A DNA stretch of 37,336 nt, taken from Terriglobales bacterium. GTDB lineage: Bacteria > Acidobacteriota > Terriglobia > Terriglobales > Acidobacteriaceae. The translations under genes and the position numbers were made by a program. The notes under the pieces are model-generated. The model was not told where the DNA came from, ran no database searches, and saw only the letters and a program-made list of their open reading frames with translations. This document shows, piece after piece, positions 858 to 29,926 of this stretch (positions are counted from its first letter, which is position 1; each line of letters starts with the position of its first letter). The stretch is from assembly GCA_035624455.1 (NCBI GenBank), contig DASPRM010000154.1, positions 1-37,336 on the forward strand, written 5' to 3'.

Positions 858-4415
<3,558 letters not shown>

Positions 4416-4443
4416 TTCCTGCCTCTCGCAATCCCAGCGCGTT

Positions 4444-4477
4444 TGCTCACCACACAGCATTTGCTCAAAACCGAGCA
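4444..4477 (+). promoter_or_regulatory. Paired enhancer sites (UAS), copy 1
   Basis: Two 16-bp inverted repeats lie in tandem with starts 18 bp apart: TGCTCACCACACAGCA (4444-4459) and TGCTCAAAACCGAGCA (4462-4477). The second has perfect 5-bp arms (TGCTC/GAGCA); the first has one mismatch. The same pair occurs at 5867 and 18998, each time 58 bp (start to start) before a -24/-12 promoter. Dimer-sized palindromes at this position are what a Fis-type sigma-54 activator binds. The assignment to the 858-4415 product is inferred from proximity. Confidence 0.8.
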
Positions 4478-4519
4478 TTGCTGACGCTTCCAAGTCCTGC
4501 CTTTTCAGCTGAGTCTGAA

Positions 4520-4535
4520 TGGACATTGCCTTGCC
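4520..4535 (+). promoter_or_regulatory. Sigma-54 (-24/-12) promoter, copy 1
   Basis: The element TGGACATTGCCTTGCC has GG at 4521-4522 and GC at 4533-4534, the invariant spacing of sigma-54 promoters (family consensus TGGCAC-N5-TTGC). A conserved inverted repeat TCAG-N6-CTGA (4505-4518) lies immediately upstream. Transcription should start near 4546, giving a short leader before the ATG at 4569. It is the weakest consensus match of the three copies. Confidence 0.8.
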
Positions 4536-4568
4536 TTCCCAAAGGTGCACTTGGGAGCCGTGATTTTC

Positions 4569-4883
4569 ATGACGCTAAGGATTGAACGGGCTCGAGCGCG
4601 GATTCGGCTGAGTGGGGAGTTTCGGTCCAGGCACCTGGATCAGGTCAAAGCCGAAATCAAGCTTTGCGAATCACCAGCAGTTTTGGATTTGGAGGAAGTA
4701 GACCTCATTGACGTCGAAGCTGTTCGTTTTCTCAGTGCGTGTGAAGCGAGAGGCATTTCCGTGTTGCACTGTTCACCTTACATCCGGCAATGGATGTTGC
4801 GGGAACCAAGTCGGTCAGAGAACGCCCACACAAGCGGAAGAGGGCAGGCGGCTTTAGACAGTGAAGATTGCGAGCAGGAATAG
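4569..4883 (+). CDS. Small STAS-like protein, first gene of unit 1
   Basis: The 104-residue soluble protein resembles the STAS fold of anti-sigma antagonists: a short N-terminal strand (MTLRIERARARIRLSGEF), then VLDLEEVDLIDVEAVRFL, where STAS proteins carry the regulatory loop, then CEARGI and CSPYIRQW. The Ser-Ser-Gly phosphorylation loop of SpoIIAA-type proteins is replaced by Val-Glu-Ala, so it probably is not switched by serine phosphorylation. The C-terminal 20 residues are polar and low in complexity. A paralogue sits at 19121-19426 behind an identical promoter cassette. The ATG at 4569 is preferred over an upstream start because both paralogues and the leader ORF at 5989 share the same 'ATGACGCT' start context. 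A role as partner of the PAS activator or of the kinase next to it is only inference. Confidence 0.8.
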   Translation: MTLRIERARARIRLSGEFRSRHLDQVKAEIKLCESPAVLDLEEVDLIDVEAVRFLSACEARGISVLHCSPYIRQWMLREPSRSENAHTSGRGQAALDSEDCEQE

Positions 4884-4930
4884 AGCGGCGGGGCTCCCGA
4901 AATTCATCTTCAGTTCGACTGGAGGTTCTC

Positions 4931-5722
4931 ATGAACCCATCCACCACAGCCATCCGTGTGCAGATCGCGAACACGAGACTCAACGAACCCGCCGGCAACT
5001 CGCGTGCGACAGGACTAATCCAAGGATGGGTCCATCGGCTTGACGGAAAGCAACGCCGGCGAGAACTGGATATTCGCGAAGAACAGCGTTTTGAGCGCAT
5101 GCGCATCGCGGGCGAGCTGCACGATACCCTGCTTCAGGGCTTTCTCGGTGCCTCCCTTGTTGTGGGGGTCACGTTGCAACACATGGCTGACGATTCGCCG
5201 GCCAGGGCGTCGCTTAGCCGCGCAGTCCAGCTGATGCAGCGCGCCATCGAGGAAGGTCGCGCTGTACTTCAAGGTCTCTGCGCTTCGGGGGTGACCTCCG
5301 GCAGCCTGGAACAGGAATTCTCGGATGTGTTGAGAGAGATCGCACCAGCCAGCGGCGTCCAGGCCCGAATACTTGTTACAGGGCAGACAAGAGCCCTGGA
5401 ACCGGAAATCCAACACCAATTCTACTTAATCGGCCGAGAGGCTCTCATGAACGCTCTTCGCCATTCAAACGCCACTAAAATCGAGGCTGAAGTAGCGTAC
5501 TTGCGGAATCATTTGCGTGTTGTGATACGGGACAATGGCTGCGGGATCGCCCCGCAGATCGTGCGGTCGGGGCGAGCGTCTCATTGGGGCCTGGTAGGGA
5601 TGCGCGAGCGGGCCAAAGGGATCGGTGCGGAAGTTCGAATATATAGCAGGCGAGAGGCGGGTACCGAGGTTGAAATTTCTATTCCCAGCGGAATCGCAGC
5701 GGCTGCGACAAAACATGGCTGA
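4931..5722 (+). CDS. NarX/LuxR-system type sensor histidine kinase (HisKA_3)
   Basis: This 263-residue kinase has a HisKA_3 dimerisation/phosphoacceptor box around ERMRIAGELHDTLLQGF, with the His in ELHDTLLQ, and a HATPase_c domain with N-box EALMNALRHS, G1-box DNGCGI and G2-like GLVGMRERA. No transmembrane segment or recognisable sensor domain is seen; the first 50 residues are a short charged region. The ATG at 4931 follows a clear GGAGG five bases upstream and is preferred over the longer frame from 4868. It lies 47 bp after the STAS-like gene, in the same unit. Kinases of this class normally pair with a LuxR/NarL response regulator, often the next gene. None is present; only a 23-codon ORF overlaps its end (5715-5786). 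Confidence 0.88.
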   Translation: MNPSTTAIRVQIANTRLNEPAGNSRATGLIQGWVHRLDGKQRRRELDIREEQRFERMRIAGELHDTLLQGFLGASLVVGVTLQHMADDSPARASLSRAVQLMQRAIEEGRAVLQGLCASGVTSGSLEQEFSDVLREIAPASGVQARILVTGQTRALEPEIQHQFYLIGREALMNALRHSNATKIEAEVAYLRNHLRVVIRDNGCGIAPQIVRSGRASHWGLVGMRERAKGIGAEVRIYSRREAGTEVEISIPSGIAAAATKHG

Positions 5723-5786
5723 GATGGCAAGCGCCGCAATCCGCTGGTCCGACGGTGTGGTAGTAGAGGACAACAATGACCGTTGA
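5715..5786 (+). other. 23-codon ORF overlapping the kinase end; possible response-regulator remnant
   Basis: The ATG at 5715 lies inside the last codons of the kinase in the +1 frame, the usual position of a coupled response-regulator gene. The short product contains VVVEDN, loosely like the first beta strand and acidic pair of a receiver domain (VLIVDDH type), then stops at 5784-5786. This could be the stub of a deleted NarL-type partner or chance. The bases from 5787 to 5866 hold nothing else recognisable. Confidence 0.25.
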
Positions 5787-5866
5787 ACGGAACGAATTAG
5801 TTTTGAAGAGTTTTATTCAGTTGTCTCCTTGACGCTTTGAACAGCAGATTTGCCGTCGCCCGGGAT

Positions 5867-5900
5867 TGCTCACTAAACAGCATTTGCTCAAAACCGAGCA
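5867..5900 (+). promoter_or_regulatory. Paired enhancer sites (UAS), copy 2
   Basis: TGCTCACTAAACAGCA (5867-5882) and TGCTCAAAACCGAGCA (5885-5900) repeat the arrangement at 4444 with the same 18-bp offset. The second site is identical in all three copies, and the first is identical to that of copy 3. Confidence 0.82.
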
Positions 5901-5942
5901 TCGCCGGCACCTCTAAGTTCCACTTTTTCAGCTAATTCTGAG

Positions 5943-5958
5943 TGGGCATTGTTTTGCA
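5943..5958 (+). promoter_or_regulatory. Sigma-54 (-24/-12) promoter, copy 2
   Basis: TGGGCATTGTTTTGCA has GG at 5944-5945 and GC at 5956-5957, with a T-rich stretch before TTGCA as in strong sigma-54 promoters. The TCAG-N6-CTGA element is at 5928-5941. The expected start of transcription is near 5969, upstream of the leader ORF at 5989 and the transaldolase gene at 6123. Confidence 0.85.
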
Positions 5959-5988
5959 TCCCATTGGTGCGCCGGGGGCCGCACTTTC

Positions 5989-6126
5989 ATGACGCTGCAA
6001 CAGCATCTCGCGCATTCGCTGTTCCGGCTGTGGAACGACACCCGGATTGTGCTCAGGTCAAACGCTAGGAGACTCGCCCGCGCACGCGAGCGCAACCAGT
6101 TTGCAAACAACGAGGTGACAGGATGA
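5989..6126 (+). CDS. 45-codon leader ORF coupled to transaldolase
   Basis: This ORF starts at the same 'TTCATGACGCT' that begins the two STAS-like genes of the other cassettes, but after MTL its sequence is unrelated: a basic, Arg-rich 45-residue peptide (for example LARARERNQF). Its stop codon overlaps the transaldolase start as ATGA (6123-6126), the classical arrangement for translational coupling. It may be a true small protein, a coupling leader, or the result of recombination that replaced a STAS-like gene and kept its start. I do not recognise the peptide. Confidence 0.45.
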   Translation: MTLQQHLAHSLFRLWNDTRIVLRSNARRLARARERNQFANNEVTG

Positions 6127-7226
6127 AAGCAACACAACTTCTTCACGACGAGGGTCAGAGTCTCTGGCTCGACAACATCACTCGCGAGCTGCTGGACAGC
6201 GGTACCGTCAAACGATATATCGACGAGCTCTCTATCACCGGACTCACCTCAAATCCCACAATCTTCGACCATGCGATCAAAAACAGTGCGACATATGATT
6301 CGGCGATTATTACGAAGTTAAAGAAAGGCACATCGGTTGAAGCGCTCTTCTTCGAGTTGGCCATGGAGGACCTCACCCGCGCCGCAGACCTGTTTCGACC
6401 AATTCATGAAAAGACGAACGGGGTGGACGGGTGGGTCTCGCTGGAAGTGTCCCCGCTGCTTGCCTACGACACGGCCAGCACTCTGGCTGCAGCCAAGGAG
6501 TTGTTTGCCCGCGCAAATCGTCCCAATTTGTTAATCAAGATTCCGGGCACCAAGCAGGGCCTTCCCGCGATCGAAGAAGCAATTTTTGCCGGCATTCCCA
6601 TCAACGTTACTCTCTTGTTCTCTCGCGAACACTATCTCGCGGCGGCAGAGGCATTCTTGCGCGGGGTTGAACGGCGCGTTGATGCCGGCCTCAATCCTCT
6701 TGTAGGTTCTGTGGCATCCGTGTTTGTCAGCCGCTGGGACGCCGCTGTTGCCAGCAAGGTGCCGGAGAACCTGCGCAACCAGCTTGGCATCGCCATCGCT
6801 AAACGCACATACAAGGCGGCCAGTGCGCTTCTTGGTTCGGCGCGCTGGCAGCGGGTTTACAATCTCGGCGGTCGTCCGCAACGTCTGCTGTGGGCGAGCA
6901 CGGGAACCAAAGATCCCAAAGCCTCCGACATTCTCTACGTCAAGGCCCTGGCTGCCCCATTCACTGTGAACACTATGCCAGAAGCCACGTTGAAAGCTCT
7001 GGCCACTCACACTGAATTAGGCGAGTTGCTCCCGACCGACGGCGGAAACTGCGAAGAGGTGCTGGCTCAGTTCGCCAAGGCGGGCGTCGACGTTGATGCT
7101 TTGGGTGCGCAGCTTCAAAGCGAAGGAGCCGAATCGTTTGACAGGTCCTGGAATGATCTCATGGCTGTGATTTCTTCTAAGAGCGCCTCGCTTGGCCCAG
7201 GCACCACGTTGAAAGCCGCCGGTTAA
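6123..7226 (+). CDS. tal: Transaldolase
   Basis: The 367-residue enzyme transfers a dihydroxyacetone unit between sedoheptulose-7-phosphate and glyceraldehyde-3-phosphate in the non-oxidative pentose phosphate pathway. Visible family marks are GLTSNPTIF near the N-terminus, LIKIPGTKQGLPAIEEA with the Schiff-base lysine (IKIPGT), INVTLLFS and SVASVFVSRWD. The length fits the longer bacterial transaldolase subfamily, often found next to or fused with glucose-6-phosphate isomerase; here the isomerase is the next gene, 54 bp on. The start has a GAGGTG ribosome-binding sequence and overlaps the upstream leader ORF. It is the first metabolic gene of unit 2. Confidence 0.96.
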   Translation: MKATQLLHDEGQSLWLDNITRELLDSGTVKRYIDELSITGLTSNPTIFDHAIKNSATYDSAIITKLKKGTSVEALFFELAMEDLTRAADLFRPIHEKTNGVDGWVSLEVSPLLAYDTASTLAAAKELFARANRPNLLIKIPGTKQGLPAIEEAIFAGIPINVTLLFSREHYLAAAEAFLRGVERRVDAGLNPLVGSVASVFVSRWDAAVASKVPENLRNQLGIAIAKRTYKAASALLGSARWQRVYNLGGRPQRLLWASTGTKDPKASDILYVKALAAPFTVNTMPEATLKALATHTELGELLPTDGGNCEEVLAQFAKAGVDVDALGAQLQSEGAESFDRSWNDLMAVISSKSASLGPGTTLKAAG

Positions 7227-7280
7227 CGCGGGGAAGCACTACCTGGAAACAGGAGACACAGAGACAAAAGGAGCATAACG

Positions 7281-8930
7281 ATGGCATCACACGCTCAAAC
7301 CCCGACAAGGCCGGCGTTCAAGCGCTCGGCATGGAGCGCGCTCGCGTCGCACTACAACAGTGCCTCGAAGCTACACCTGCGGCAATTGTTTGCGGACGAT
7401 CCCAAGCGTGGTCAGCGCATGGCGATCGAGGCCGTGGGCTTGTATCTCGATTATTCCAAAAATCGCGTCACCGACGAAACCCTCAAGCTTCTTGTTCAGC
7501 TCGCCGAGGAATCGGATTTGCGAGCACGGATCGACGCCATGTTCAGCGGGGAAAAGATCAACATCACGGAGAAGCGCGCGGTTTTGCACGTGGCCCTTCG
7601 TGCGCCGAAGGACGCTACTATTCTCGTCGACGGAAAGAACGTCGTCCCTGACGTGCATGCGGTGCTCGAGAAGATGGCCGATTTCTCGAACCGCGTGCGA
7701 AGCGGCGCGTGGAAAGGTCATACCGGTAAGCGCATTCGTAACGTCGTGAATATTGGCATTGGCGGCTCCGATCTCGGCCCCGTCATGGCCTATGAAGCAC
7801 TCAGGCACTATAGCCAGCGCGATATGACCTTCCGGTTTGTTTCCAATATCGATGGCACGGACTTCGCGGAAGCGGTGCGCGACCTCGATCCGGCGGAGAC
7901 GCTGTTTATTGTCTCTTCAAAAACCTTTACGACACTCGAGACCATGACGAACGCCCACAGCGCCCGCGCGTGGTCACTCGCCGGTCTGGCGGGCGATGAA
8001 CGGTCGGTTGCAAAGCACTTTGTCGCGGTGTCAACAAACGCGGCGGAAGTAGCGAAGTTCGGGATCGACACCGCCAACATGTTCGGATTCTGGGATTGGG
8101 TTGGTGGACGCTATTCGATGGATTCGGCGATCGGACTTTCCACTATGGTCGCGATCGGCGCGGATAACTTCCGCGCCATGCTGGATGGCTTTCACCAGAT
8201 GGACGAACATTTTCGCGGGGCTCCCTTCGCAGCAAACCTGCCGGTGATCATGGGCCTGCTCTCCGTTTGGTACAACGACTTTTTTGGCGCACAAACGGTC
8301 GCTGTTTTGCCCTATGAGCAGTACCTGAAGCGATTCCCGGCCTATCTCCAACAGTTGACGATGGAGAGCAACGGAAAACACGTCACACTCGATGGAGAAG
8401 CTGTCGCCCGCGACACTGGTCCTATCTACTGGGGTGAGCCAGGCACGAACGGACAGCACTCGTTTTACCAGTTGATCCATCAAGGGACGCGGCTCATCCC
8501 TTGTGATTTTGTCGCATTTGCCAAGCCGTTGAATCCGCTTGGCCGGCATCATGACATGCTGCTGGCCAATGTTTTTGCACAGACCGAAGCGCTGGCCTTC
8601 GGTAAGACACCCGAGCAGGTGAAGGCGGAAGGCACGCCGGACTGGCTGGTTCCGCACCGAGTCTTCGAAGGTAACCGTCCCTCGAACACGATTCTGGCCG
8701 AGACCCTTACTCCAGAAACACTGGGCAAACTGGTGGCCCTTTACGAGCACTCCGTGTTCACGCAAGGTGTCCTTTGGAACATTGACTCATTCGATCAGTG
8801 GGGGGTTGAGCTCGGCAAAGTTCTCGCCCAGCGCATCATTCCAGAACTCGAGAATCCGGCCGAGCCTGTGCTGAATCACGACAGCTCAACCAATACTCTA
8901 ATCCGGCGTTACCGCAAACTTAAGGAGTAG
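7281..8930 (+). CDS. pgi: Glucose-6-phosphate isomerase
   Basis: The 549-residue protein interconverts glucose-6-phosphate and fructose-6-phosphate in the cytosol. It matches the Enterobacteria-type PGI in length and carries [20 protein letters not shown] for phosphate binding, the [10 protein letters not shown] region and the catalytic-base region around [14 protein letters not shown]. An AAGGAG ribosome-binding site sits before the ATG. Only two bases separate its stop from the aldolase gene, so the two are co-transcribed. Product links the glucose side of the operon to transaldolase and transketolase substrates. Confidence 0.97.
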
Positions 8931-8932
8931 CA

Positions 8933-9862
8933 ATGACGACAATTGGGACTCTCAAAAACACGAGCACGGCTCCGCTACGCGATATCTTGACACGGTTGGA
9001 AACGGAAGGCGCTGCCCTCGGCCATTTCAATGTTGCCGACCAGGTGTTGCTGAAAGCGGTGATCGCAGCCGGAGCTGAGACCAAACTTCCGATACTCGTC
9101 GGCGCCTCCGAAGGAGAGCGTGAGTTCTTTGGTGCGCGCCAGCTTGCCGCTCTGGTGAAAAGCGAACGCGAGGAATCCGACTTTCCAATTTTTTTGAACG
9201 CGGACCATACGCATTCACTCGCAAAGGCAGTGGACGCTGCAAATGCTGGGTTTGATGCCGTAGTGATAGATTTTTCCGCTTTGCCCTTCGATCAGAATGT
9301 GGCCCGCACGAAGGAAGCGGTTGAAGCGATCAAGGGCATCAACCCCGCAATCGTAGCTGAAGGAGAGATCGGCAACATTGGCACCGGCTCCGAAATCCAC
9401 GAAACCGCTCAGGGCGACAGAACGCTCAGCACGCCGGAAGAGGCGCGGCAATTCGTCGCGGCCACCGGAATTGACGTCCTTGCTCCGGCAGTTGGCAACA
9501 TGCACGGCATGCTTAAGAGTATGGTGCAGGGAAAAACGAAGAAGCGCCTGAATATCGAAAGAATTGCGCAAATCAAGCAGGCCGCCGGCGTCTTTCTCAC
9601 CCTACACGGCGGGTCGGGAACTGATGATGAAGACTTCCGCAGGGCAATCAGGGCGGGAATCAACATCATCCACATCAATACCGAACTGCGGGTTGCGTGG
9701 AGGGAATCACTGCAAGAGAGCCTGGCCCGAGACCCCAACGAAGTTGTACCCTACAGGATTTTGCGGCCGGTCGTAGATTCTGTGAAGCAGGTTGTCACCT
9801 CGCGCTTGCGGCTGTTCCATGGTCAACCGGTCAGCCCTGATGTCGCTGGAAGCGTTGCGTGA
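8933..9862 (+). CDS. Class II fructose-bisphosphate aldolase (FBA/KbaY family)
   Basis: The 309-residue zinc aldolase cleaves or forms fructose-1,6-bisphosphate, or a related ketose bisphosphate. Zinc and substrate motifs are visible in order: FLNADHTHS (Asp-His pair), VAEGEIGNIG, GNMHGM (second zinc His) and LTLHGGSGT (third zinc His, phosphate loop). The family also contains tagatose-bisphosphate aldolases, and sequence alone does not separate them; the context of pgi, tal and tkt favours fructose bisphosphate. The start lies two bases after pgi. A 204-bp gap follows before the lactonase gene and holds only a weak hairpin (GGCTGG/CCAGCC, 9965-9986). Confidence 0.93.
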   Translation: MTTIGTLKNTSTAPLRDILTRLETEGAALGHFNVADQVLLKAVIAAGAETKLPILVGASEGEREFFGARQLAALVKSEREESDFPIFLNADHTHSLAKAVDAANAGFDAVVIDFSALPFDQNVARTKEAVEAIKGINPAIVAEGEIGNIGTGSEIHETAQGDRTLSTPEEARQFVAATGIDVLAPAVGNMHGMLKSMVQGKTKKRLNIERIAQIKQAAGVFLTLHGGSGTDDEDFRRAIRAGINIIHINTELRVAWRESLQESLARDPNEVVPYRILRPVVDSVKQVVTSRLRLFHGQPVSPDVAGSVA

Positions 9863-10066
9863 GCAGCCTTGAGATTGCAAGCCTCTGTCGCGAATGTGCG
9901 GACACTTTCGATCAGACGAACACCTGGGGACACGCGTGAGGTTGAACGAGTGACACCGATGGGAGGCTGGAGCAATCCAACCAGCCATGAAGCGTCCGCG
10001 GTAAGCAAGGCAGCGTAAGAAACAAGGCGATTAGCTTTGGAGTCCACAGTGCCGAGGGGAGTCTTT

Positions 10067-10783
10067 ATGAAAATTGATGTCTATAGCAATGCTGACGCGG
10101 TTGCCCAGAAAGCTGCTGCACTCGTGGCGGCGGAGGCGAGAGCTGCGGTCGCTGCTCGCGGCACTTTTGTCATGGCCGTCAGTGGCGGGCACACGCCATG
10201 GCAGATGCTGCGTGCTCTCGCGGGTGAAGACGTGCCCTGGGACGCGGTGCAGGTGGTGCAGGTGGATGAGAGAGTCGCACCTGCGGGAGACGCGGACAGA
10301 AATCTCACGCACTTACGTGAGAGCCTTCTCGAGCATGCGCCTTTGCGCGCGGAGCAGATCCACGCAATGCCGGTTGAATCCGCAAACCTGGAGGCGGCAT
10401 GTGCGGAATATGCGCTGACCTTAAAGACGCTCGCCGGATCGCCACCCGTGCTTGACCTCGTTCACTTAGGACTCGGGCCCGACGGCCATACGGCTTCGCT
10501 AGTACCTGGAGACCCGGTGCTGGAGGTCAATGATGCAGATGTCGCGCTCACTGGAATCTACCAAGGGAGGCGGCGCATGACGCTGACCTATCCAATTCTC
10601 AATCGCTCCCGCCGGGTGCTGTGGCTCGTGACCGGAAGCGAAAAGGCGGGGATGCTTCCCCGATTACGTGCCGGCGATGCTCAGATTCCGGCCGGCAGGG
10701 TTCGCGCGGATAACGCGCTGGTATTGGCGGATCGCGCGGCAGCCGGGCAACGGGATATGGATTCGACGGCGGAAGTGGCTTGA
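10067..10783 (+). CDS. pgl: 6-phosphogluconolactonase
   Basis: This 238-residue protein of the SugarP_isomerase/DevB family hydrolyses 6-phosphogluconolactone. Family marks are MAVSGGHTPWQML, QVDERVAP and LGLGPDGHTASLVPG, the last being the diagnostic pgl signature. The ATG at 10067 is chosen over 10037 because GAGGGGAG precedes it and the protein then begins directly with the family N-terminus (MKIDVYSNADAVA). Genes for the enzyme making its substrate (zwf) and the next step (gnd) are not in this operon or window, which is unusual for a pgl gene in a pentose phosphate cluster. Confidence 0.94.
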   Translation: MKIDVYSNADAVAQKAAALVAAEARAAVAARGTFVMAVSGGHTPWQMLRALAGEDVPWDAVQVVQVDERVAPAGDADRNLTHLRESLLEHAPLRAEQIHAMPVESANLEAACAEYALTLKTLAGSPPVLDLVHLGLGPDGHTASLVPGDPVLEVNDADVALTGIYQGRRRMTLTYPILNRSRRVLWLVTGSEKAGMLPRLRAGDAQIPAGRVRADNALVLADRAAAGQRDMDSTAEVA

Positions 10784-10874
10784 GTGGAATGCGCTGAACT
10801 GGAGCGAGGACCATCGGCGTGTCGGAGGAGAGGCCAGGGTGATAGCGGCCCCGGCATTGTGCGGTAATTGAAAA

Positions 10875-13640
10875 ATGACGGTAATGGGTAGGGGCGCATC
10901 GACGAAATGGTACGAAGCACAGCCGGGAGACGGCCTCGCCGAGTCAATCCGCCTGGCCGAGGATAGTCGTCGTGAGAAGAACTGGAAGCGGTGGGGACCG
11001 TATCTTCCGGAACGCCAGTGGGGCACGGTGCGCGAAGATTACTCCGCTAACGGTGACTCCTGGAACTATTTTCCTCACGAGCACGCGCGCAGCCGCGCTT
11101 ACCGCTGGGGCGAAGATGGGCTCTTAGGATGGTGCGACCGCGAGTGCCGCCTCTGTTTCGCCGTCGCTCTTTGGAATGGCAAGGATCCCATCCTCAAGGA
11201 ACGCCTGTTCGGCCTGACTAACAGCGAGGGTAACCACGGTGAGGATGTCAAGGAATGTTATTTCTACCTTGATGGAACTCCTACCCACTCGTACCAGAAG
11301 GCGCTTTATAAATATCCGCAGGCCGAGTTTCCTTACGCCCGATTGGTCGCGGAGAACCATAACCGCGGTTCCCAGGATCCGGAGTTCGAGCTACTGGATA
11401 CCGGCATCTTCGATGAAAACCGCTATTTCGATGTTTTCGTCGAATATGCCAAAGGCGGACCAGACGATACTCTCATCCGCATTACTGCCTGCAATCGCGG
11501 ACCTGAGCCAGCCGTCCTTCACCTGCTACCCACTCTATGGTTCCGCAACGTGTGGTCATGGGGTCGTGCGGGTGAGGATTTCCAAGGCCAACCCCGCCTT
11601 CGCTGCCTGAGCCTCAACACTCTCGAAGCTGAGCACGCGTCGCTCGGGCGCATGTTACTGGTCGCCGGCCCGGGTTTTTCGGGCCATGATCCAGTCCTCC
11701 TTTTTACGGATAACGAAACCAATCTCGCCAGGCTTTTTGGCGCCCCGAATCCCACTCCATTTGTGAAGGATGCATTCCACGAATATGTCATCCGAGGGCA
11801 CCACGAACTCGTGAACCACGAAGGCTGGGGTACGAAAGCTGCTGTTCACTACCACGGCGAGGTCCCCCCGGGCGCCGAGTTCCGTGTCGATCTGCGCCTC
11901 TACTTCGCAGACCAAGGGCCGATGCAGCCTTTAGGCCAGCCTTTCGATGAGATGTTCGATCTTCGTATTCGTGAGGCCGACGAGTTCTACGCTGCCAAGC
12001 TTGTCAACACCAGCGCTGGCGAGAGTGCGCGCGTCGCTCGCCAGGCTTATGCCGGCCTGTTGTGGTCCAAGCAGTTCTACGAATATGTTATTTCTGACTG
12101 GCTGGCCGGCGACCCCAAGCAACCGGCGCCTCCTGCCGAACCCAGCCAACGTCGAAACAGTCGATGGCAGCACCTGCACTGTCGCGATGTCCTTTCGGTT
12201 CCGGATAAGTGGGAATTCCCTTGGTTTGCTGCGTGGGACCTGGCCTTTCATCTGGTGACCCTGGCGGAGATAGATCTTGAACTGGCCAAGCAACAGGCGA
12301 TCTTGTTCCTGCGCGAGTGGTACATGCATCCAAACGGGCAACTTCCTGCCTACGAGTACGCGTTTGACGATGTCAATCCACCAGTCCACGCGTGGGCCTG
12401 CTGGCGGATTTATAAGATGACTGGCTCTGGCCAGCAACGCGATCATCTCTTTCTTGAGCGCGCTCTACAGAAGCTCCTGCTTAACTTCACCTGGTGGGTC
12501 AACTGTGAAGACCATACAGGAAAGAGTCTTTTCTCCGGTGGCTTTCTCGGGCTGGATAACATCGGCATCTTTGACCGCTCCGCGGCTCTACCGCCAGGTG
12601 TCACTTATGCCCAGGCCGACGGCACCGCATGGATGGCCTTCTACTGCCTCACCATGCTCGCCATGTCGCTCGAATTGGCACTTCACAATCCAGCGTACGA
12701 GGACATTGCTTCCAAGTTCTTCGAACACTTTGTCGCCATCGCTGATGCTACAAACAATTTTCGCGGGACCGGGCTGTGGGACGCAGCGGATGGCTTCTAC
12801 TACGACGGCCTCGACATTGGCGGCCAGGGGCTGCGAATTCGGGCCCGTTCCATGGTCGGTCTGGTTCCGCTTTTCGCCGTTGCGGTTCTGGACGACAGAG
12901 TCATCGACCAGTTGAGCGGCTTCAAGCAGCGCCTGAACTGGTTCCTCAAGAACCGGCCCGATCTCGGAGACCAGATCGCCTATGCGACACCTGGAGAAGA
13001 CCACGGCCGGGGGCGCAGATTGCTCGCCATTCCGTCGCGCCAACGGCTGGAACGCGTGCTGCAATACGTCTTCGACGAGCACGAATTCCTGTCGCCTTAT
13101 GGAATCAGGTCTCTTTCGGCGGTTCATCGCGAGCATCCCTTGATCATGCACACTGCCAACGCCGAGCTCCGCGTTGATTACACTCCGGGAGAATCCACCA
13201 CTTCTATTTTTGGTGGCAACTCGAATTGGCGCGGCCCGGTGTGGTTTCCAGTCAACTATCTGCTGGTCGAAGCCCTTCAACGGTACCACCATTTTTATGG
13301 TGACAGTCTTACTGTGGAAGTCCCTGCCGGCTCCGGCATCCGAATGAATCTCGCTCAAGCTGCGTCCGAGCTTTCCGGGCGCCTGGTTCAGCTCTTCCTT
13401 CCCGACCGCCACGGCTATCGCCCATGCCACGGCGGGCAGGCGCGCTTTGCCACCGACCCGCATTGGCGCGACCTCATCCTCTTCAATGAATACTTCCACG
13501 GAGACACCGGCCGGGGATGCGGTGCCAGCCACCAGACCGGGTGGACCGCGTTGGTCGCCCGGCTTCTCCGGGAATTCGGTTCTGGTCGCTCGCTCTCAGT
13601 TGCTGAAGCGATGCAATCTGCTATGGCAGGGGCAACCTGA
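10875..13640 (+). CDS. MGH1-type / GH63-like glycoside hydrolase (glucosidase)
   Basis: The 921-residue protein resembles the glucosidase/mannosylglycerate-hydrolase group with an (alpha/alpha)6 barrel in its C-terminal half. Visible blocks include the N-terminal RWGPYLPERQWGTVREDY and NYFPHEHARSRAYRWGEDG, the central KWEFPWFAAWDLAFH, GQLPAYEYAFDDVNPP, and GGNSNWRGPVWFPVNYLL with TGWTALVA near the end. No signal peptide is seen, so it should act in the cytosol on a short glucoside or storage oligosaccharide; the true substrate is unknown. Inside the operon it could release free glucose, which would suit the glucose-dehydrogenase-like SDR at the operon end. That pairing is inference. Confidence 0.85.
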   Translation: MTVMGRGASTKWYEAQPGDGLAESIRLAEDSRREKNWKRWGPYLPERQWGTVREDYSANGDSWNYFPHEHARSRAYRWGEDGLLGWCDRECRLCFAVALWNGKDPILKERLFGLTNSEGNHGEDVKECYFYLDGTPTHSYQKALYKYPQAEFPYARLVAENHNRGSQDPEFELLDTGIFDENRYFDVFVEYAKGGPDDTLIRITACNRGPEPAVLHLLPTLWFRNVWSWGRAGEDFQGQPRLRCLSLNTLEAEHASLGRMLLVAGPGFSGHDPVLLFTDNETNLARLFGAPNPTPFVKDAFHEYVIRGHHELVNHEGWGTKAAVHYHGEVPPGAEFRVDLRLYFADQGPMQPLGQPFDEMFDLRIREADEFYAAKLVNTSAGESARVARQAYAGLLWSKQFYEYVISDWLAGDPKQPAPPAEPSQRRNSRWQHLHCRDVLSVPDKWEFPWFAAWDLAFHLVTLAEIDLELAKQQAILFLREWYMHPNGQLPAYEYAFDDVNPPVHAWACWRIYKMTGSGQQRDHLFLERALQKLLLNFTWWVNCEDHTGKSLFSGGFLGLDNIGIFDRSAALPPGVTYAQADGTAWMAFYCLTMLAMSLELALHNPAYEDIASKFFEHFVAIADATNNFRGTGLWDAADGFYYDGLDIGGQGLRIRARSMVGLVPLFAVAVLDDRVIDQLSGFKQRLNWFLKNRPDLGDQIAYATPGEDHGRGRRLLAIPSRQRLERVLQYVFDEHEFLSPYGIRSLSAVHREHPLIMHTANAELRVDYTPGESTTSIFGGNSNWRGPVWFPVNYLLVEALQRYHHFYGDSLTVEVPAGSGIRMNLAQAASELSGRLVQLFLPDRHGYRPCHGGQARFATDPHWRDLILFNEYFHGDTGRGCGASHQTGWTALVARLLREFGSGRSLSVAEAMQSAMAGAT

Positions 13641-13671
13641 AGATCGGTGAACATATGCCAAGGAGGCAGTC

Positions 13672-15759
13672 ATGAGTACCGCGCTAGCCATTGTTGACAA
13701 TTTGAGCCCTGCACAGCTCGATCAGCTATGCGTCAACACGATTCGCACGCTCTCAATGGATGCTGTGCAGCAGGCCAACTCGGGACATCCCGGCACGCCC
13801 ATGGCACTTGCGCCGCTCGTATATACGATCTGGAATCGCGTTCTCCGCTTCGATCCACAGAATCCGATCTGGCCCAACCGTGATCGTTTCGTACTGTCAA
13901 ATGGTCATGCGTCGATGTTGCTGTGGTCTGTTCTCCATCTCACTGATGTCCAGGCTCTCAATGAGAACTATGAGACGGTGGGCAAGGCTTCGGTTACGCT
14001 CGACGATATCCGTCGTTTCCGCCAGCTTGACAGCAAGGCTCCGGGCCACCCCGAATACCATTGGGTGTCCGGTGTGGAGACCACGACCGGTCCCCTCGGT
14101 CAGGGTGTAGCCACAAGCGTTGGCATGGCGATCGCAGAGAAGTGGCTCGCCCAGCACTTCAACCGCCCAGGCTTTGAGATCTTCGACTACAACATTTATG
14201 CCGTTTGCGGCGATGGCTGCTTGATGGAGGGCGTTTCGTCAGAAGCTGCATCGCTGGCCGGGCACCTCGGCCTCGACAATCTCTGCTGGGTCTACGATAA
14301 CAATCACATCACGATCGAAGGCAGCACGCGCCTGGCGTTCACTGAGGACGTGGAGACACGATTCCTGGGGTACGGGTGGAACGTCCTGCGCGTCGGCGAT
14401 GCCAATGATCTCGAGCGCATTGAAAACGCCCTCGGCATTTTCCGGAAGACGAAGGGTCGTCCGACATTCATTGTTCTGGACAGCCATATCGGGTACGGTG
14501 CGCCACACAAGCAGGACACTGCCGCTGCTCACGGAGAGCCGCTGGGAGATGAGGAGATCCGGCTGGCCAAACGCAGCTACGGGTGGCCCGAGCAGGCAAA
14601 GTTTTTCGTTCCCGAAGGAGTGTACGAGCACTTCGCAGCAGGCATTGGCACCCGCGGCGCCGATACCCGGCGCCAGTGGCTGCAGCTTTTCGACGCCTAC
14701 CGGGCGAAGTACCCTGACCTGGCCACAGAAATCGACCTGCTGCAGCGGCGCGAGCTTCCAGCAGGGTGGGATCGTAACCTTCCTGTATTTCCGGCCGACC
14801 CGAAAGGACTTGCGGGCCGGGATGCCTCGAGCAAGGTGTTAAACGTACTTGCACAGAACATACCGTGGTTTCTGGGTGGGTCCGCGGATCTCGGTCCATC
14901 GAACAAGACCACCCTTACCTTCCCTGGCGCGGGGGACTTTCAAGCCGACAGTCCGGCAGGGAAAAACCTGCACTTCGGTATTCGCGAGCACGCGATGGCG
15001 GCCATCGTCAACGGACTCTCGCTATCGAAGCTTCGGGCTTTTGGGGCGACTTTCTTCATATTCAGCGATTACGCCCGGCCGGCGATCCGGTTAGCCGCGC
15101 TCATGGAGTTGCCCTCTCTTTTCGTCTTCACCCATGACGCGATGGGTGATGGCGAGGACGGTCCTACCCACCAACCGGTCGAGCAGCTTGCATCCTTGCG
15201 TGCGATTCCGGGGCTGGTCACCTTGCGCCCCGGCGATGCTAACGAGGTAGTAGAGGCATACCGCTATGTCATTCAACTGCGCCATCAGCCCGCGGTACTG
15301 GCGCTGTCGCGGCAACCCCTGCCCACACTCGATCGCAGTAAATATGCGCCCGCATCAGGCGTCGCGCTGGGGGCCTATGTGCTCGCAGATTGCCCCGGCG
15401 GAAACCCCGAGGTGATCATTATCGCTTCGGGCAGCGAGGTCAGTCTTGCAGTGCAGGCCCACGAGAATCTGCTCGCCGAAGGCATTCGTTCACGCGTGGT
15501 ATCGATGCCCTCATGGGACATTTTCGAACACCAACCCCAAGCCTACCGGGAAAGCGTGTTGCCACCGAATGTCACAGCGCGCGTGGCCGTGGAGCAGGCG
15601 TCCACCTTCGGCTGGGAACGATACGTTGGCAACTCTGGTCGTGTGATTGGCATGCACACCTTCGGAGCTTCGGCGCCGCTCAAGGAATTACAAAGGAAGT
15701 TCGGGTTTGAGCCGGAACATGTGGTTGGTGCTGCCAAAGAGCAACTGGCAAGGAAGTAA
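13672..15759 (+). CDS. tkt: Transketolase
   Basis: The 695-residue thiamine-diphosphate enzyme moves two-carbon units between sugar phosphates. It shows [35 protein letters not shown], the GDG...N-type cofactor site as [15 protein letters not shown], and the C-terminal [11 protein letters not shown] and [18 protein letters not shown]. Length and domain order are those of a single-chain bacterial transketolase. The start has AAGGAGG eight bases upstream and lies 31 bp after the glucosidase gene. With tal, pgi and the aldolase it completes a reversible sugar-phosphate interconversion set. Confidence 0.97.
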
Positions 15760-15827
15760 GCGCGCGCGGTGTGTCCAACACCGCTGGCGCCGAAGGTTGC
15801 GTAAGCGCGGTAGAGGAGGTTGCGACT

Positions 15828-17873
15828 ATGGGAGAGGCTAGAGTCATCATCGTAGGCGGGGGTTTCGCAGGCTTGACTCTGGCGGAGAACCTCAATCGTC
15901 GGGTTGGGCGTGAGGTCGAAGTGGTAGTCATCAGCAGTGAAAACCACATGGTCTTTACTCCGCTGCTTGCGGAGGTGGCAGGCCGCTCTCTTTCCGGGCT
16001 CGACGTGGTAGTGCCAGGCCGGCAGGTGGCTCCCCGGGCCAACTGGTTAACGGCCACCGTAACCAGCGTCGATCTGAAGAATAACGAGGTCGAGTACATC
16101 CGCCCGGATGGCAAGAGTTCGAGGCTCTCCTACGCTCACCTGGTCCTCGCCTGTGGCTCAGACGTAAATCTCGACATTATTCCCGGCATGGCGGCTCATG
16201 CTTACACGCTCAGGACAGTGAGCGACGGTATGGTTTTGGGCAACGAAGTCATCGCGCGTTTTGAGCAGGCAGCAGTGGAACCCGAAGACGCCGAGAGACA
16301 ACGACTGCTCACGATTGTGGTGGTCGGCGGGGGCTTCACGGGAGTGGAAGCGGCGGGTCATCTGTTCGACCTGATGCGCAATGTCAAGTCCTATTATCCG
16401 GATTTGCGCCACATTGAGCCACGGATGGTGCTTGTGCAACGCGGGGCGCGAATTGTCCCAGAATTTCAACACGATTCTCTTTCGGAGTTTGCCTTGCGAA
16501 AAGTCCGCCAAAATGGCCTCGACGTGAGACTGAATACGGACGTGAAAGAGGTTACGGCGCGATATGTCACGTTGGGGACAGGAGAGCGGATAGAAGCGGG
16601 CCTAACCATTTGCGCAGTGGGGACGACGCCGGTCGCCCTCATCAAGAAAATCGGCCTTCCGCTGGAGCGGGGCAGGTTGAAGACCGAGCCCGACATGCGG
16701 GTAACCGGCACGGGCAACGTGTGGGCGTTTGGCGACTGTGCGGCGGTTCCCAATGCGTGGAATGCACAGATCTCTCCCCCTACAGCGCAATTTGCACTGC
16801 GCCAAGCGAAGCAACTGGCCGCCAACCTGGTTCGGGTCCAACGCAGAGGGGCAACGAGGCCGTTCCACTTCCGCCCGCAAGGGCTATTGGCTACTATCGG
16901 CCACCATAACGGAGTGGCTGAAGTCTATGGGCTGAAATTCTCCGGTCTGGTCGCCTGGTTGTTGTGGAGAACCGTGTACCTGATGAAGATTCCCACATTG
17001 AGCCGCAAGCTCAACGTGGTCTTGGATTGGACCTGGGGTCTGTTTTTCAAGCCCAACATCGTGCAAGTGCCGGTAATGCAACAGCAGCGATTCAAGCAGG
17101 TCCACTATGCCGCAGGCGATTTTGTTTTTCGCAAAGGTGACCCGGGCACGGCCTTTTTTGTGGTCAAAGCCGGCAGTGCCGGGCTTTACATGGATGAGGC
17201 TGCCGGAACTCCTCTTGTCACCTGGACTAAGGGAGACCATTTCGGGGAGATGGCGTTTCTTGAAGGCGTGGACCACCCCACACAGCCAGCGTCGGTCAAA
17301 GCGGAAACGCCATTGGACTTGGTTGTTCTCGACCGCGCGGATTTCACCGACCTCGCTGAGTCTCTTGGAGCGCTGCAGAAAGACCTGGAGGAGTCGTTGT
17401 TCGCCAGCCGGGCCTACGGACGGTTCACAACCATGGTGGCCAGCAACCCCGCCCTGGGGGCTCTCACTGTTGCCGACGTCATGACTAGTTCCGTTCAGAC
17501 CTTGCCGCTCGAGCTCCCATTGGCCAAGACCGTGGAGAAATTTCAGGGCGGGGAGGCAGCATTCCCAGTGACAGAAGGTGAAATCTTGAAGGGATACTGC
17601 AGCCGCCGGGAGCTTTTCCGCGCGCTGGGCCGAGGTTTACCCTTTGACACGCCAGTTCGCGATTTCATGCGGCAAGCACCACCCAATGTCAGGGAAACCG
17701 ACGCCGTGCTTGCCGCATTCGCAGAGTTTCTCCGCAGCAACATGGACATCATGCCGGTAGTCGCAGCCGATGGCAGCGCCAGAGTTGTGGGGATCTTCAG
17801 TGGCCTCGATGCCGCTCGTAGGGTGGCGGAAATCGCGGGCCACGGGTTGGGGTCTCGTTCTTCTGCGGCGTGA
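15828..17873 (+). CDS. Type II NADH dehydrogenase fused to cNMP-binding and tandem CBS domains
   Basis: This 681-residue fusion begins with a complete NDH-2 module (about 1-410): FAD-binding VGGGFAGL, second Rossmann [13 protein letters not shown], the FGDCAAV flavin motif, and the membrane-associating segment [22 protein letters not shown]. Next comes a cyclic-nucleotide-binding-like beta barrel (about 415-530, [32 protein letters not shown]) and two CBS motifs (about 550-675, [17 protein letters not shown] and [10 protein letters not shown]). Ordinary NDH-2 proteins have about 400-450 residues. The enzyme should oxidise NADH and reduce quinone without pumping protons. The extra domains suggest control by a nucleotide or adenylate charge (inference). 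The ATG at 15828 has GAGGAGG upstream and is preferred over the GTG at 15771. Confidence 0.9.
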
Positions 17874-17949
17874 ATCGCAGCTGCCATCGGCGGACACCTG
17901 GAAAGGCGGCCCGCGTAGAGCCGCATAGCACGCGAACCAGGAGGAACCA

Positions 17950-18774
17950 GTGAGCGCAACACAAACATTACCAAGACCCGTCGCAACTGACCGACTGGCA
18001 GGCAAGGTTGCCATCATCACCGGCGGTGACCAGGGGATCGGGCGTGCCATCGTGCTGCGCTTAGCGGCTGAAGGCGCCGACATCGCTTTCTGTTATCGCA
18101 GTAATCGCAGTGGCGCCGAAGAAGTCATCACCGCTATCACCGGCGATGCTGGCGGAGCGGCGCCCGGACGCAAACTGCTGGCGTTGCAGGCTGATGTCAG
18201 TGACACCGCGCAAATACAGAACTTCGTTGCTACGGTCCTCGAGCGCTTCGGAACGGCCGATATCCTGGTGAACAACGCCGGCCTGGAACGACGTGCCGAC
18301 TTCTGGGACGTGACGGAGCAGGACTATGACCTGGTGCTCAACGTGAACCTTAAAGGGGTATTCTTCACGACGCAAGCGGTGGTGCGGCATTGGATGGCCG
18401 CGAGGAAGCCGGGGAAGATCATCAATATCAGTTCAGTACACGAAGAGTTGCCGTTTCCGCATTTCGCAACCTACTGCGCGAGCAAGGGCGGGCTGAAAAT
18501 GCTGACCCGCGATCTGGCAATCGAGCTGGCGCCATACGGCATTACGATCAACAACATTGCACCCGGTGCGATTGAAACGCCGATCAACAGGGCGCTGCTA
18601 AACGATCCGGCGAAGCTGAAGCCGCTGCTCGAAAATATTCCGCTGAAGCGGCTCGGGAGTCCCGGAGACGTGGCTGGCGTCGCTGCGTTCTTGGCTTCCT
18701 CCGACTCGGATTACATGACCGGCACGACGCTTGTTGTCGATGGCGGGCTGCTCTGGTCATACGAGGAGCAGTGA
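17950..18774 (+). CDS. SDR-family oxidoreductase, glucose 1-dehydrogenase-like
   Basis: The 274-residue classical short-chain dehydrogenase has the cofactor motif TGGDQGIGRA, NNAG (structural), an active-site Ser in ISSV, the YCASK Tyr-Lys pair, and the C-terminal DYMTGTTLVVDGGLLW. It most resembles the glucose 1-dehydrogenase branch of the family, which oxidises free glucose to gluconolactone with NAD(P), but close relatives act on other alcohols and sugars. The start is GTG with AGGAGG upstream. It is the last gene of unit 2, 76 bp after the NDH-2 fusion, which could reoxidise its NADH. Confidence 0.82.
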   Translation: MSATQTLPRPVATDRLAGKVAIITGGDQGIGRAIVLRLAAEGADIAFCYRSNRSGAEEVITAITGDAGGAAPGRKLLALQADVSDTAQIQNFVATVLERFGTADILVNNAGLERRADFWDVTEQDYDLVLNVNLKGVFFTTQAVVRHWMAARKPGKIINISSVHEELPFPHFATYCASKGGLKMLTRDLAIELAPYGITINNIAPGAIETPINRALLNDPAKLKPLLENIPLKRLGSPGDVAGVAAFLASSDSDYMTGTTLVVDGGLLWSYEEQ

Positions 18775-18879
18775 AAGGCATTTTGTGTTGCACTACACTG
18801 CCGCCGAATTGGGCGGTAGAGTTGAACTGCTGAGCGGCCCCCAAGATCGGCCGATCGAAATAAAGAAAGCTTCCGCCGC

Positions 18880-18901
18880 TGCTCACAAGCTGCTCACAAA
18901 A
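18880..18901. repeat. Tandem 11-bp repeat with UAS half-site sequence
   Basis: TGCTCACAAGC and TGCTCACAAAA lie head to tail. Both contain TGCTC, the left arm of the enhancer palindromes 118 bp downstream, but neither has a right arm. They are in the gap 18775-18997, which otherwise holds only a short GGGGC-TTC-GCCCC hairpin (18945-18957) that could mark the end of unit 2 although it lacks a T tract. Accessory activator contacts are possible but unproven. Confidence 0.35.
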
Positions 18902-18997
18902 CGTTCGACACGACTGAAGCCCAGCAAGTTCACATGCGCCCGATGGGGCTTCGCCCCGATGCCGTGAGCGTATACCAGCCGGCAATCCCGGTGCATT

Positions 18998-19031
18998 TGC
19001 TCACTAAACAGCATTTGCTCAAAACCGAGCA
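18998..19031 (+). promoter_or_regulatory. Paired enhancer sites (UAS), copy 3
   Basis: TGCTCACTAAACAGCA (18998-19013) and TGCTCAAAACCGAGCA (19016-19031) again lie 18 bp apart and 58 bp before the promoter TGG. They drive the respiratory unit. The near-identity with copies 1 and 2 in otherwise unrelated surroundings shows that the whole cassette is under constraint or was copied recently. Confidence 0.82.
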
Positions 19032-19073
19032 TCGTCGGCACGTCTAAGTACCACCTTTTCAGCTAATTCTGAG

Positions 19074-19089
19074 TGGGCATTGTCTTGCA
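19074..19089 (+). promoter_or_regulatory. Sigma-54 (-24/-12) promoter, copy 3
   Basis: TGGGCATTGTCTTGCA has GG at 19075-19076 and GC at 19087-19088. The TCAG-N6-CTGA element lies at 19059-19072. The start of transcription is expected near 19100, 21 bases before the ATG of the STAS-like gene. Confidence 0.85.
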
Positions 19090-19120
19090 TTCCCATGGCT
19101 GCACTTGGGAGTCGCAATTC

Positions 19121-19426
19121 ATGACGCTCAAGATTGAACGGGCCCGAGCGCGGATTCGATTGAGTGGAAAGTTTCGGTCCGAGCATCTGGATCAGGTCAG
19201 CGCCGAAATCGACCTCTGCGAATCACCAAAAGTTTTGGATTTGGAGGAATTGGACCTCATAGATGTGGAAGCCGTTCGCTTCCTCAACGCGTGTGAAGCG
19301 AAGGGCATCATGGTGGTGCGTTGTTCACCTTACATCAGGAAATGGATGTTGCGGGAACGAAGTCGGCCGGAGATGCAAGTACAAACGCGGAAGAGAGGGA
19401 ACGGGGCAGACGGCTTTGGAAACTGA
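19121..19426 (+). CDS. Small STAS-like protein, first gene of unit 3
   Basis: The 101-residue protein is a close paralogue of the 4569-4883 product: the same MTL start, IERARARIRLSGKFRSEHLD, VLDLEELDLIDVEAVRFL and CSPYIRKWMLRE. The two diverge in their polar C-terminal tails. The STAS phosphoacceptor serine is again replaced (DVEA). The start at 19121 is chosen because it is the shared 'ATGACGCT' start; a longer frame from 19073 would begin inside the promoter. It precedes the oxidase operon by 77 bp. A regulatory or stoichiometric partner role is possible; no enzyme activity is expected. Confidence 0.8.
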   Translation: MTLKIERARARIRLSGKFRSEHLDQVSAEIDLCESPKVLDLEELDLIDVEAVRFLNACEAKGIMVVRCSPYIRKWMLRERSRPEMQVQTRKRGNGADGFGN

Positions 19427-19503
19427 CCTTGTGGAGCAGGAGTAGAGCGGCGGGTACTTCCGCAGTGAAATTTGAGGAGAACGGAAGAAGAAGAGAAAGG
19501 TTG

Positions 19504-20559: not shown

Positions 20560-20578
20560 AAGGCTCCGGTAAATAACT

Positions 20579-22249: not shown

Positions 22250-22261
22250 AGGATCAAAGCA

Positions 22262-22858: not shown

Positions 22859-22864
22859 GTAGAG

Positions 22865-24471: not shown

Positions 24472-24473
24472 AC

Positions 24474-26521: not shown

Positions 26522-26533
26522 GGTTGCGAGTCT

Positions 26534-29923: not shown

Positions 29924-29926
29924 GCG

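Follow-up and report, generated by a model that had tools for sequence, protein, structure and literature searches.

Can a single sigma-54 activator control, through copies of its own operator and promoter, neighboring genes for signaling, sugar-phosphate metabolism and respiration? The question is raised by a 37,336-nucleotide stretch from the genome of a soil bacterium of the Terriglobales, Acidobacteriota (assembly GCA_035624455.1, contig DASPRM010000154.1, positions 1–37,336 of the forward strand), referred to below as the window. Here, an activator gene (858–4415) is followed by three copies of one cassette, starting at positions 4444, 5867 and 18998 and each made of two 16-bp palindromes and a -24/-12 element of the form TGG-N8-TTGC. 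A first-pass annotation had interpreted this layout as a local regulon, in which the activator binds the palindromes and switches on a kinase unit, a sugar-phosphate unit and a respiratory unit together. Our analysis largely supports the predicted regulon. With a probability of roughly 0.84, we consider the locus to be a self-contained sigma-54 switch whose activator would bind the cassettes and whose operator/promoter unit was duplicated onto the sugar-phosphate and caa3 oxidase gene rows.

Three cassettes of the same geometry at one locus

Direct reading of the sequence bore out the cassettes as first described. The palindromes start 18 bp apart in every cassette. Site 2 (TGCTCAAAACCGAGCA) is the same in all three, and site 1, which has one mismatch within its 5-bp arms, reads TGCTCACCACACAGCA in copy 1 and TGCTCACTAAACAGCA in copies 2 and 3. 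The -24/-12 elements (TGGACATTGCCTTGC, TGGGCATTGTTTTGC and TGGGCATTGTCTTGC, at 4520, 5943 and 19074) each begin exactly 58 bp past the first base of site 2, and all three have the GG and GC elements at the required spacing. Transcription from a sigma-54 promoter requires rpoN and starts about 12 nt past the GC element. The gene for rpoN, which the regulon could not do without, is represented by one match in the genome. The palindrome centers precede the -24 element by about 50 and 68 bp, which puts them at about -76 and -94 relative to the expected transcript start. The earlier expectation was 80–150 bp; the sites are upstream as expected, but near the close edge of this range. The cassette is very probably a sigma-54 operator/promoter unit.

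We then asked how specific the arrangement is within the genome (4.39 Mb, 166 contigs, 97.7% complete). With no mismatches allowed, the paired-site pattern is found only at the three cassettes, all intergenic and in one orientation, and the closest other forward match has 3 mismatches. The reversed-pattern control gave 0 forward matches and 1 reverse match. Only matches with few mismatches are informative, since pairs with 3 mismatches are present in 43 of 61 genomes (this one and relatives), as expected by chance; one true cassette, G014:C51, stands among these otherwise mostly chance matches. The single palindrome TGCTC-N6-GAGCA occurs at 19 forward places in the genome versus 3 for the reversed control, and no pair match coincides with any of the 16 that fall outside the window. 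When 225 bases spanning cassette 3 and the beginning of the next gene served as the query, the same three places matched strongly and two others weakly (E 1.6 and 5.6). Because the cassettes are confined to one locus, they are not scattered near many unrelated activators, the distribution that the first-pass annotation had regarded as telling against it.

This confinement also bears on the idea that the repeats are transposon-like or terminator-like and have no promoter role, to which we give very little credence. Terminator-like matches are present on the minus strand of site 2 in cassettes 2 and 3, and an open reading frame (ORF) at 344–676, close to the beginning of the contig and immediately before the activator gene, matches HTH_21 and is presumably an IS3-type transposase. 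However, the counts of terminator-like matches are close to the shuffle expectation (4 versus 2.5; 1 versus 0.8), the genome has no perfect copies besides the three intergenic, uniformly oriented ones, and a like element occupies the same place in other genera (see below). On the strength of the genome search and the shuffle counts, we rejected both terminators and mobile repeats.

A further intergenic TGG-N8-TTGC (TGGACAGCGTATTGCA, 35958–35973) is present near a zinc alcohol dehydrogenase gene (35980–37131). It was left outside the predicted regulon because it lacks the TGCTC pair.

Duplication of the cassettes and constraint on their sites

The three cassettes are not independent. Copies 1 and 3 are part of a longer duplication (4428–4892 versus 18982–19454; 79% identity over 475 columns), each part of which includes a small STAS-like gene. 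Copy 2 is homologous over about 131–133 bp, and its identity over this length is 89% with copy 3 and 78% with copy 1. This indicates that the extra copies arose by duplication. Copy 1 is most likely the original, since relatives carry the cassette beside the activator.

Across the three copies, the operators and TGG/TTGC vary at 2 of 41 columns, compared with 18 of 51 elsewhere in the cassette (Fisher p 3.4e-4). Copies 2 and 3 have the same operators and TGG/TTGC, which differ from copy 1 at 2 of 41 positions; in the rest of the cassette they differ from it at 16–17 of 51. The two differ from each other at 5 of 92 positions overall, 0 of 41 in the operators and core and 5 of 51 elsewhere. Both STAS gene duplicates are open, with a nonsynonymous divergence (dN) of 0.19 and a synonymous divergence (dS) of 0.56 over 100 codons.

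It might be argued that cassette 1 alone works and that cassettes 2 and 3 are recent by-products of duplication without regulatory effect. Such an explanation gains from the 89% identity of copies 2 and 3 over 133 columns and from the arrival of copy 3 together with the STAS duplicate. On the other hand, the differences largely spare the operators and the promoter core, dN is below dS in the STAS duplicate, and both extra cassettes stand in sense orientation directly upstream of same-strand gene rows. We therefore regard this explanation as unlikely, though it should be kept in view; the comparison with relatives, given below, has points on both sides.

A putative one-component activator

Pfam matches and motifs confirm that the 858–4415 product is a sigma-54 activator; they also show a Fis-type helix-turn-helix (HTH). 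Its AAA+ domain matches PF00158 (Sigma54_activat, E 1.5e-71) and has Walker A GETGTGKE, the GAFTGA loop at residue 943 and Walker B IFLDE at residue 964; residues 1131–1172 match the Fis-type HTH family PF02954 with 30.2 bits (cut-off 22). The best solved relatives over the AAA+ part are ZraR, a Nif-specific regulator, CapR, FleQ and NtrC-type proteins, the top PDB match being ZraR (1ojl, E 7.5e-92). Of the 39 PDB matches at E<=1e-5, not one has a best stretch that spans both the sensor part and the AAA+ part. The protein thus shares with ZraR, NifA, CapR, FleQ, NtrC and PspF an AAA+ domain with a GAFTGA loop and a Fis-type HTH. Unlike the response regulators NtrC and ZraR, it has PAS and GAF domains as its sensor part, and its 13 Pfam families at E<=0.001 include no receiver domain. 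For this reason it looks like a one-component activator.

A similar putative switch in relatives

Is the arrangement peculiar to this genome? A search of named genomes yielded 27 loci, of which 24 belong by title to Acidobacteria or acidobacterial groups and one each to Verrucomicrobia, Cupriavidus and Sorangiineae; the Sorangiineae relative of the activator is only 27% identical. Many of these loci have, behind the activator, a palindrome pair with a -24/-12 element and then a STAS-like gene whose start reads ATGACGCT(G/A)AAGATTGA or similar. At the Cupriavidus locus (L063, 12136 onward), an activator relative (51%) precedes a TTCGCC-type pair and TGGCTCAGTAATTGC, which shows that the module also occurs beyond Acidobacteriota. 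In Edaphobacter modestus (L053), two activator genes lie within kilobases of each other, and both have a TGCTC cassette of their own, spaced at 57 or 58 bp. The two arrangements, at 5739 (minus strand) and 11414 (plus strand), represent a natural test case for cross-talk.

Among 397 genomes of the order, 59 encode a close relative of the activator's C-terminal part (counted at a chosen cut-off of E<=1e-118). A relaxed TGCTC pattern (up to 3 mismatches) was found in five of the 397, at eight places: three in the window genome, two in G389 and single ones in G120, G014 and G380. Outside the window genome, every one of the five places adjoins an orthologous activator, and the pattern occurs nowhere else in those four genomes. 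As the pattern was derived from these same loci, their recovery is no test, and the informative part of the search is the absence elsewhere.

For family statistics, we collected activators from loci L039–L066 and L095–L190 and from the window. We kept high-scoring segment pairs of at least 250 positions that reached query residue 310 or beyond, had their stop inside the locus and were followed by at least 150 nt. The 140 segment pairs gave 114 distinct entries, 104 of them with at least 58% identity; these were used for the promoter and STAS counts. A strict TGG-N8-TTGC is present 80–200 nt past the stop in 57 of the 104. After base shuffling, the downstream sequences contained 0.78 promoters on average and never more than 4 (200 rounds); on the opposite strand there were 2 in 104. 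The count is lowered because some translations pass an internal stop, so that their downstream distances start too far on.

The palindromes, too, have preferred positions. In the 54 non-redundant promoters obtained by merging the 57, 16-mers in which 6 or more of the 8 pairs are palindromic pile up at -57 to -59 (17), -66 to -69 (25) and -76 to -78 (14) from TGG, compared with a background of about 0.5% over -30 to +19. In our reading, the middle peak is expected where two sites mirror each other.

Of the 104 activators, 46 have a STAS-like gene in the ORFs behind them, and in 42 it comes first. STAS matches are present in the flanks of at least 74, a lower bound as several loci end near the gene; 64 are located downstream in the same orientation and 6 upstream in the opposite one. 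Genes beyond the STAS gene vary. Alcohol dehydrogenases homologous to the one at 35980–37131 in the window are found beyond the activator or the STAS gene in L040, L042, L044 and L258. Other cargo, of which the window kinase was assigned with Pfam and the rest by reading the sequence, includes SDR, kinase, ECF sigma, RND efflux and aldehyde dehydrogenase clusters.

Collectively, these data indicate that activator, cassette and STAS gene recur as a unit in Acidobacteriota. What would be special to the window genome is therefore the recruitment of carbon and respiratory operons alone.

Operator classes and the recognition helix

If each activator binds its own cassette, operators should change along with recognition helices. 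Merging 63 promoters, strict or slightly relaxed, gave 61 helix–operator pairs. After correction for AAA+ similarity, operator similarity correlates with six helix residues, which, like the class list, were picked after viewing the sequences (partial Mantel r 0.39, 0 of 2000 permutations). No such correlation holds for the spacer that separates the operator from the promoter (r 0.03, 422 of 2000). Helices of the form PR(P/A)TL(D/E)AKI typically go with TGCTC operators and P(T/A)(R/Q/K)TLDSKI with TCCT..AGGA, PPSTLDSKI often goes with CACGAA..TTCGTG, and PRSTL(D/E)SKI with GCCGAA or TTCGCC forms. Some pairs depart from this scheme; in L105, for instance, PDSTLEAKI is paired with a TCCCGA site.

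The TCC class provides another view of the same link. The TCC-type operator alone, without the promoter, was found in the 397 genomes at seven places in seven genomes (control 0); the pattern was written from two of these loci (G142 and G215), and five are new. All seven adjoin a family activator and a STAS gene, and each has (T/C)GG-N8-(T/C)TGC, six of them at a distance of 58 bp and the seventh at 59 bp. In L260 and L262–L264 the STAS gene is divergent from the activator, so that the cassette accompanies the STAS gene and not the 3′ end of the activator gene. In G230, G373 and G229, the activators have no strict downstream promoter; they contain the helix PARTLDSKIKRF, in line with the TCC operators there, an agreement that was not set down as a prediction beforehand.

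Could the palindromes be bound by another regulator, such as a different activator of the same genome? We consider this improbable. The genome has 18 further sigma-54 activator matches (E<=1e-20), the closest of which is 54% identical over the C-terminal part, so candidates exist. In each of them, the last 90 residues were scanned for the stretch most like the 12-residue helix of the window activator. L075 (PLSTLNQKIKRL) shares 8 of 12 residues, L070 (PRTTLIYKMRRL) shares 7, and the remainder match at 6 or fewer; in L071, L083 and L084 no Fis-type HTH was recognizable in the frame read. By comparison, PRATLEAKIKRL, a helix of the TGCTC class, differs from the window helix at only 2 of 12. L075 and L070, however, differ from it at most of the helix residues that vary between operator classes. 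Moreover, across the 61 pairs the operator class tracks the helix of the adjacent activator, and cassette and activator co-occur in the order. The helix comparison thus makes another activator of the genome an unlikely binder, and the product of the neighboring 858–4415 gene is very probably the one that would bind the cassettes.

Gene rows behind the cassettes

The features of the window are listed in Table 1. Co-transcription of the gene rows was judged from strand and spacing. The first unit had been called a kinase unit; it does contain a histidine kinase gene but begins with the STAS-like gene. A slightly longer frame of the latter (4545–4883) matches STAS_2 with E 2.2e-4 and 21.8 bits, below the curated cut-off of 29.2, and has no NCBIfam family. 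Its duplicate behind cassette 3 had no Pfam match in the frame scanned. SpoIIAA-type STAS proteins have a phosphorylated serine in the stretch D-S-S. Both window copies, about 100 residues long, read D-V-E instead, with no serine at the position. In relatives, the pattern caught this stretch in 23 of 49 STAS proteins; of the forms read, most have D or E and two contain a serine.

Table 1. Coordinates of cassettes and genes in the window, with the evidence for each assignment
Feature	Coordinates	Strand	Evidence
Putative one-component sigma-54 activator: several PAS, GAF, AAA+ with GAFTGA, Fis-type HTH	858–4415	+	Pfam, motif reading
Operator site 1, cassette 1 (TGCTCACCACACAGCA)	4444–4459	+	Sequence and genome pattern search
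Operator site 2, cassette 1 (TGCTCAAAACCGAGCA)	4462–4477	+	Sequence and genome pattern search
-24/-12 element, cassette 1 (TGG-N8-TTGC)	4520–4535	+	Sequence
STAS-like gene, 104 aa	4569–4883	+	Weak Pfam STAS_2; synteny (often first gene after cassette in relatives)
HisKA_3/HATPase histidine kinase	4868–5722	+	Pfam
Operator site 1, cassette 2	5867–5882	+	Sequence and genome pattern search
Operator site 2, cassette 2	5885–5900	+	Sequence and genome pattern search
-24/-12 element, cassette 2	5943–5958	+	Sequence
45-codon ORF opening with the cassette's own ATGACGCT; stop overlaps transaldolase start (ATGA)	5989–6126	+	
Gene row behind cassette 2	6123–18774	+	Pfam, NCBIfam
Transaldolase	6123–7226	+	Pfam, NCBIfam
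Glucose-6-phosphate isomerase	7281–8930	+	Pfam, NCBIfam
Class II fructose-bisphosphate aldolase	8933–9862	+	Pfam, NCBIfam
6-Phosphogluconolactonase	10037–10783	+	Pfam, NCBIfam
GH63/MGH1-like glycosidase	10875–13640	+	Pfam, NCBIfam
Transketolase	13672–15759	+	Pfam, NCBIfam
NDH-2-like oxidoreductase fused to cyclic-nucleotide-binding (cNMP) and CBS domains	15771–17873	+	Pfam, NCBIfam
SDR	17950–18774	+	Pfam, NCBIfam
Operator site 1, cassette 3	18998–19013	+	Sequence and genome pattern search
Operator site 2, cassette 3	19016–19031	+	Sequence and genome pattern search
-24/-12 element, cassette 3	19074–19089	+	Sequence
Second STAS-like gene, 101 aa, duplicate of 4569–4883	19121–19426	+	
Respiratory gene row behind cassette 3	19504–28339	+	Pfam, NCBIfam
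COX2 with cytochrome c domain (candidate ATG at 19504)	19504–20559	+	Pfam, NCBIfam
COX1	20579–22249	+	Pfam, NCBIfam
COX3	22262–22858	+	Pfam, NCBIfam
Unknown protein	22865–23737	+	
Cytochrome c, two matched stretches	23734–24471	+	Pfam, NCBIfam
Rieske	24474–25043	+	Pfam, NCBIfam
Cytochrome b plus cytochrome c (longest ORF)	24647–26521	+	Pfam, NCBIfam
CtaG	26534–27406	+	Pfam, NCBIfam
UbiA-family prenyltransferase	27407–28339	+	Pfam, NCBIfam

The short ORF between cassette 2 and the transaldolase gene is possibly a leader ORF, a relic or a chance frame, and its overlap with the transaldolase start could reflect translational coupling or chance. Two neighboring MacB-like permease genes are located at 28679–31177, with no ATPase among the adjacent ORFs scanned.

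How old is the predicted sigma-54 control of the carbon and respiratory operons?

We compared transaldolase and oxidase genes with their best 30 loci each, examining 29 after excluding the window's own. A strict -24/-12 element was found within up to 400 nt upstream in 0 of the 29 transaldolase loci. Because of this, the sugar-phosphate operon is without comparative support and a sigma-54 promoter ancestral to the transaldolase operon is not supported; sigma-54 control of the sugar-phosphate genes looks new in the window genome. Alignment with relatives to locate insertion edges before transaldolase gave short matches only, the best near the gene start.

The oxidase loci present a different picture. 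The two closest (L222/L251 and L223/L252) have TGGTAGCACGCTTGC upstream of cox2, in upstream sequences unlike those of the window, and a different sigma-54 activator (51–53% in the C-terminal part) lies a few kilobases off. The third closest, L253, has no strict element. Overall, a strict element is present within up to 1200 nt upstream in 6 of the 29 oxidase loci (two with less sequence), against about 2 expected from a rough count based on base frequencies; conservation was examined for the first two loci. Recurrent sigma-54 control of the caa3 oxidase, with different operators, may be considered a lead. In both L251 (genome G215, 11231–16458) and L252 (G250, 7922–16003), the caa3 operon faces an NDH-like gene, 28–30% identical to that of the window, with sigma-54-like elements on both strands between them.

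These comparisons bear on the suggestion that cassettes 2 and 3 are without effect. The empty transaldolase loci fit it, as do the 11 genomes found to carry the two operator classes searched (TGCTC and TCC), among which the window genome alone has more cassettes than adjacent activators and the 10 others have no extra copies. The sigma-54-like promoters that the two closest caa3 operons possess, though L253 does not, speak for a functional cassette 3. Considering this together with the constraint on the sites, we prefer the reading in which all three cassettes act, and joint control of the three units appears probable.

Several observations weigh against this reading. The base 3′ of TGG in the window promoters is A or G, where the sigma-54 consensus has C. 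As duplicates, copies 2 and 3 are young, and the constraint between those two alone is non-significant (p 0.06). The transaldolase loci of relatives lack the promoter, and L075 has a helix not far from that of the window activator. A strict downstream -24/-12 element is absent in 47 of the 104 family activators. This is only partly accounted for, by a promoter before a divergent STAS gene or by a stop measured beyond a premature one (e.g., L162 and L165). The extent of each unit is predicted, as are binding and the transcripts themselves.

Proposed mechanism

In the proposed mechanism, the Fis-type HTH of the activator would bind the two palindromes of each cassette as adjacent dimers. Upon a signal, the activator would hexamerize, and its GAFTGA-containing AAA+ domain would remodel sigma-54 polymerase at TGG-N8-TTGC. 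Cassette 1 would drive the STAS-like gene, placed as in relatives, and the kinase. Two later duplications would have put the operator/promoter before the row from transaldolase through glucose-6-phosphate isomerase, aldolase, 6-phosphogluconolactonase and transketolase to the NDH-like gene, and before the second STAS gene with the caa3 and bc-type genes. One signal could then raise sugar-phosphate flux and oxidase capacity together.

More generally, the data suggest that sigma-54 switches of this type form a portable, mutually orthogonal family, found mainly in Acidobacteriota. Each would comprise a multi-PAS activator, its own paired operators, set at a constant spacing to a -24/-12 promoter, and a STAS-like partner. 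The operator may be readable from a few helix residues, and the output may have been copied onto pentose-phosphate/glycolytic and caa3 operons by promoter capture. We hold this broader proposal with moderate confidence, somewhat above even odds.

Relation to known regulons and significance

Local sigma-54 regulons as such are already known. In Desulfovibrio vulgaris, one-component regulons with activator-specific motifs have been reconstructed (PMC4641369). The acidobacterial locus resembles these regulons in that an activator gene adjoins a sigma-54 promoter whose sites are specific to that activator. The Desulfovibrio study remarks that similarity of binding motifs is not always matched by similarity of DNA-binding domains (PMC4641369), whereas operator and helix of the acidobacterial family correlate after correction. 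A further difference from the regulons presented there is that the operator–promoter–STAS arrangement recurs and was apparently duplicated onto carbon and respiratory operons. In a 2025 cross-phylum survey of sigma-54 (PMC12316311), the string "Acidobacteri" is absent from the main text, and the consulted part of PMC4576408 treats, for sigma-54, one Desulfovibrio activator. None of the literature matches listed, all open-licence papers, concerns an acidobacterial sigma-54 regulon. What is new is the recurrent activator–operator–STAS arrangement, the operator classes linked to helices and the putative duplication onto carbon and respiratory operons.

These results provide an acidobacterial family of sigma-54 activators with a predicted operator, promoter and target set. 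The 61 natural helix–operator pairs are a ready data set for decoding the specificity of Fis-type HTH domains, and with the putatively captured operons, the growth of a regulon through duplication of an entire enhancer–promoter unit can be tested on a clear example. If the proposed regulon is true, control of a caa3 oxidase and the pentose-phosphate route by one sigma-54 sensor would, in our judgement, represent an unusual physiology.

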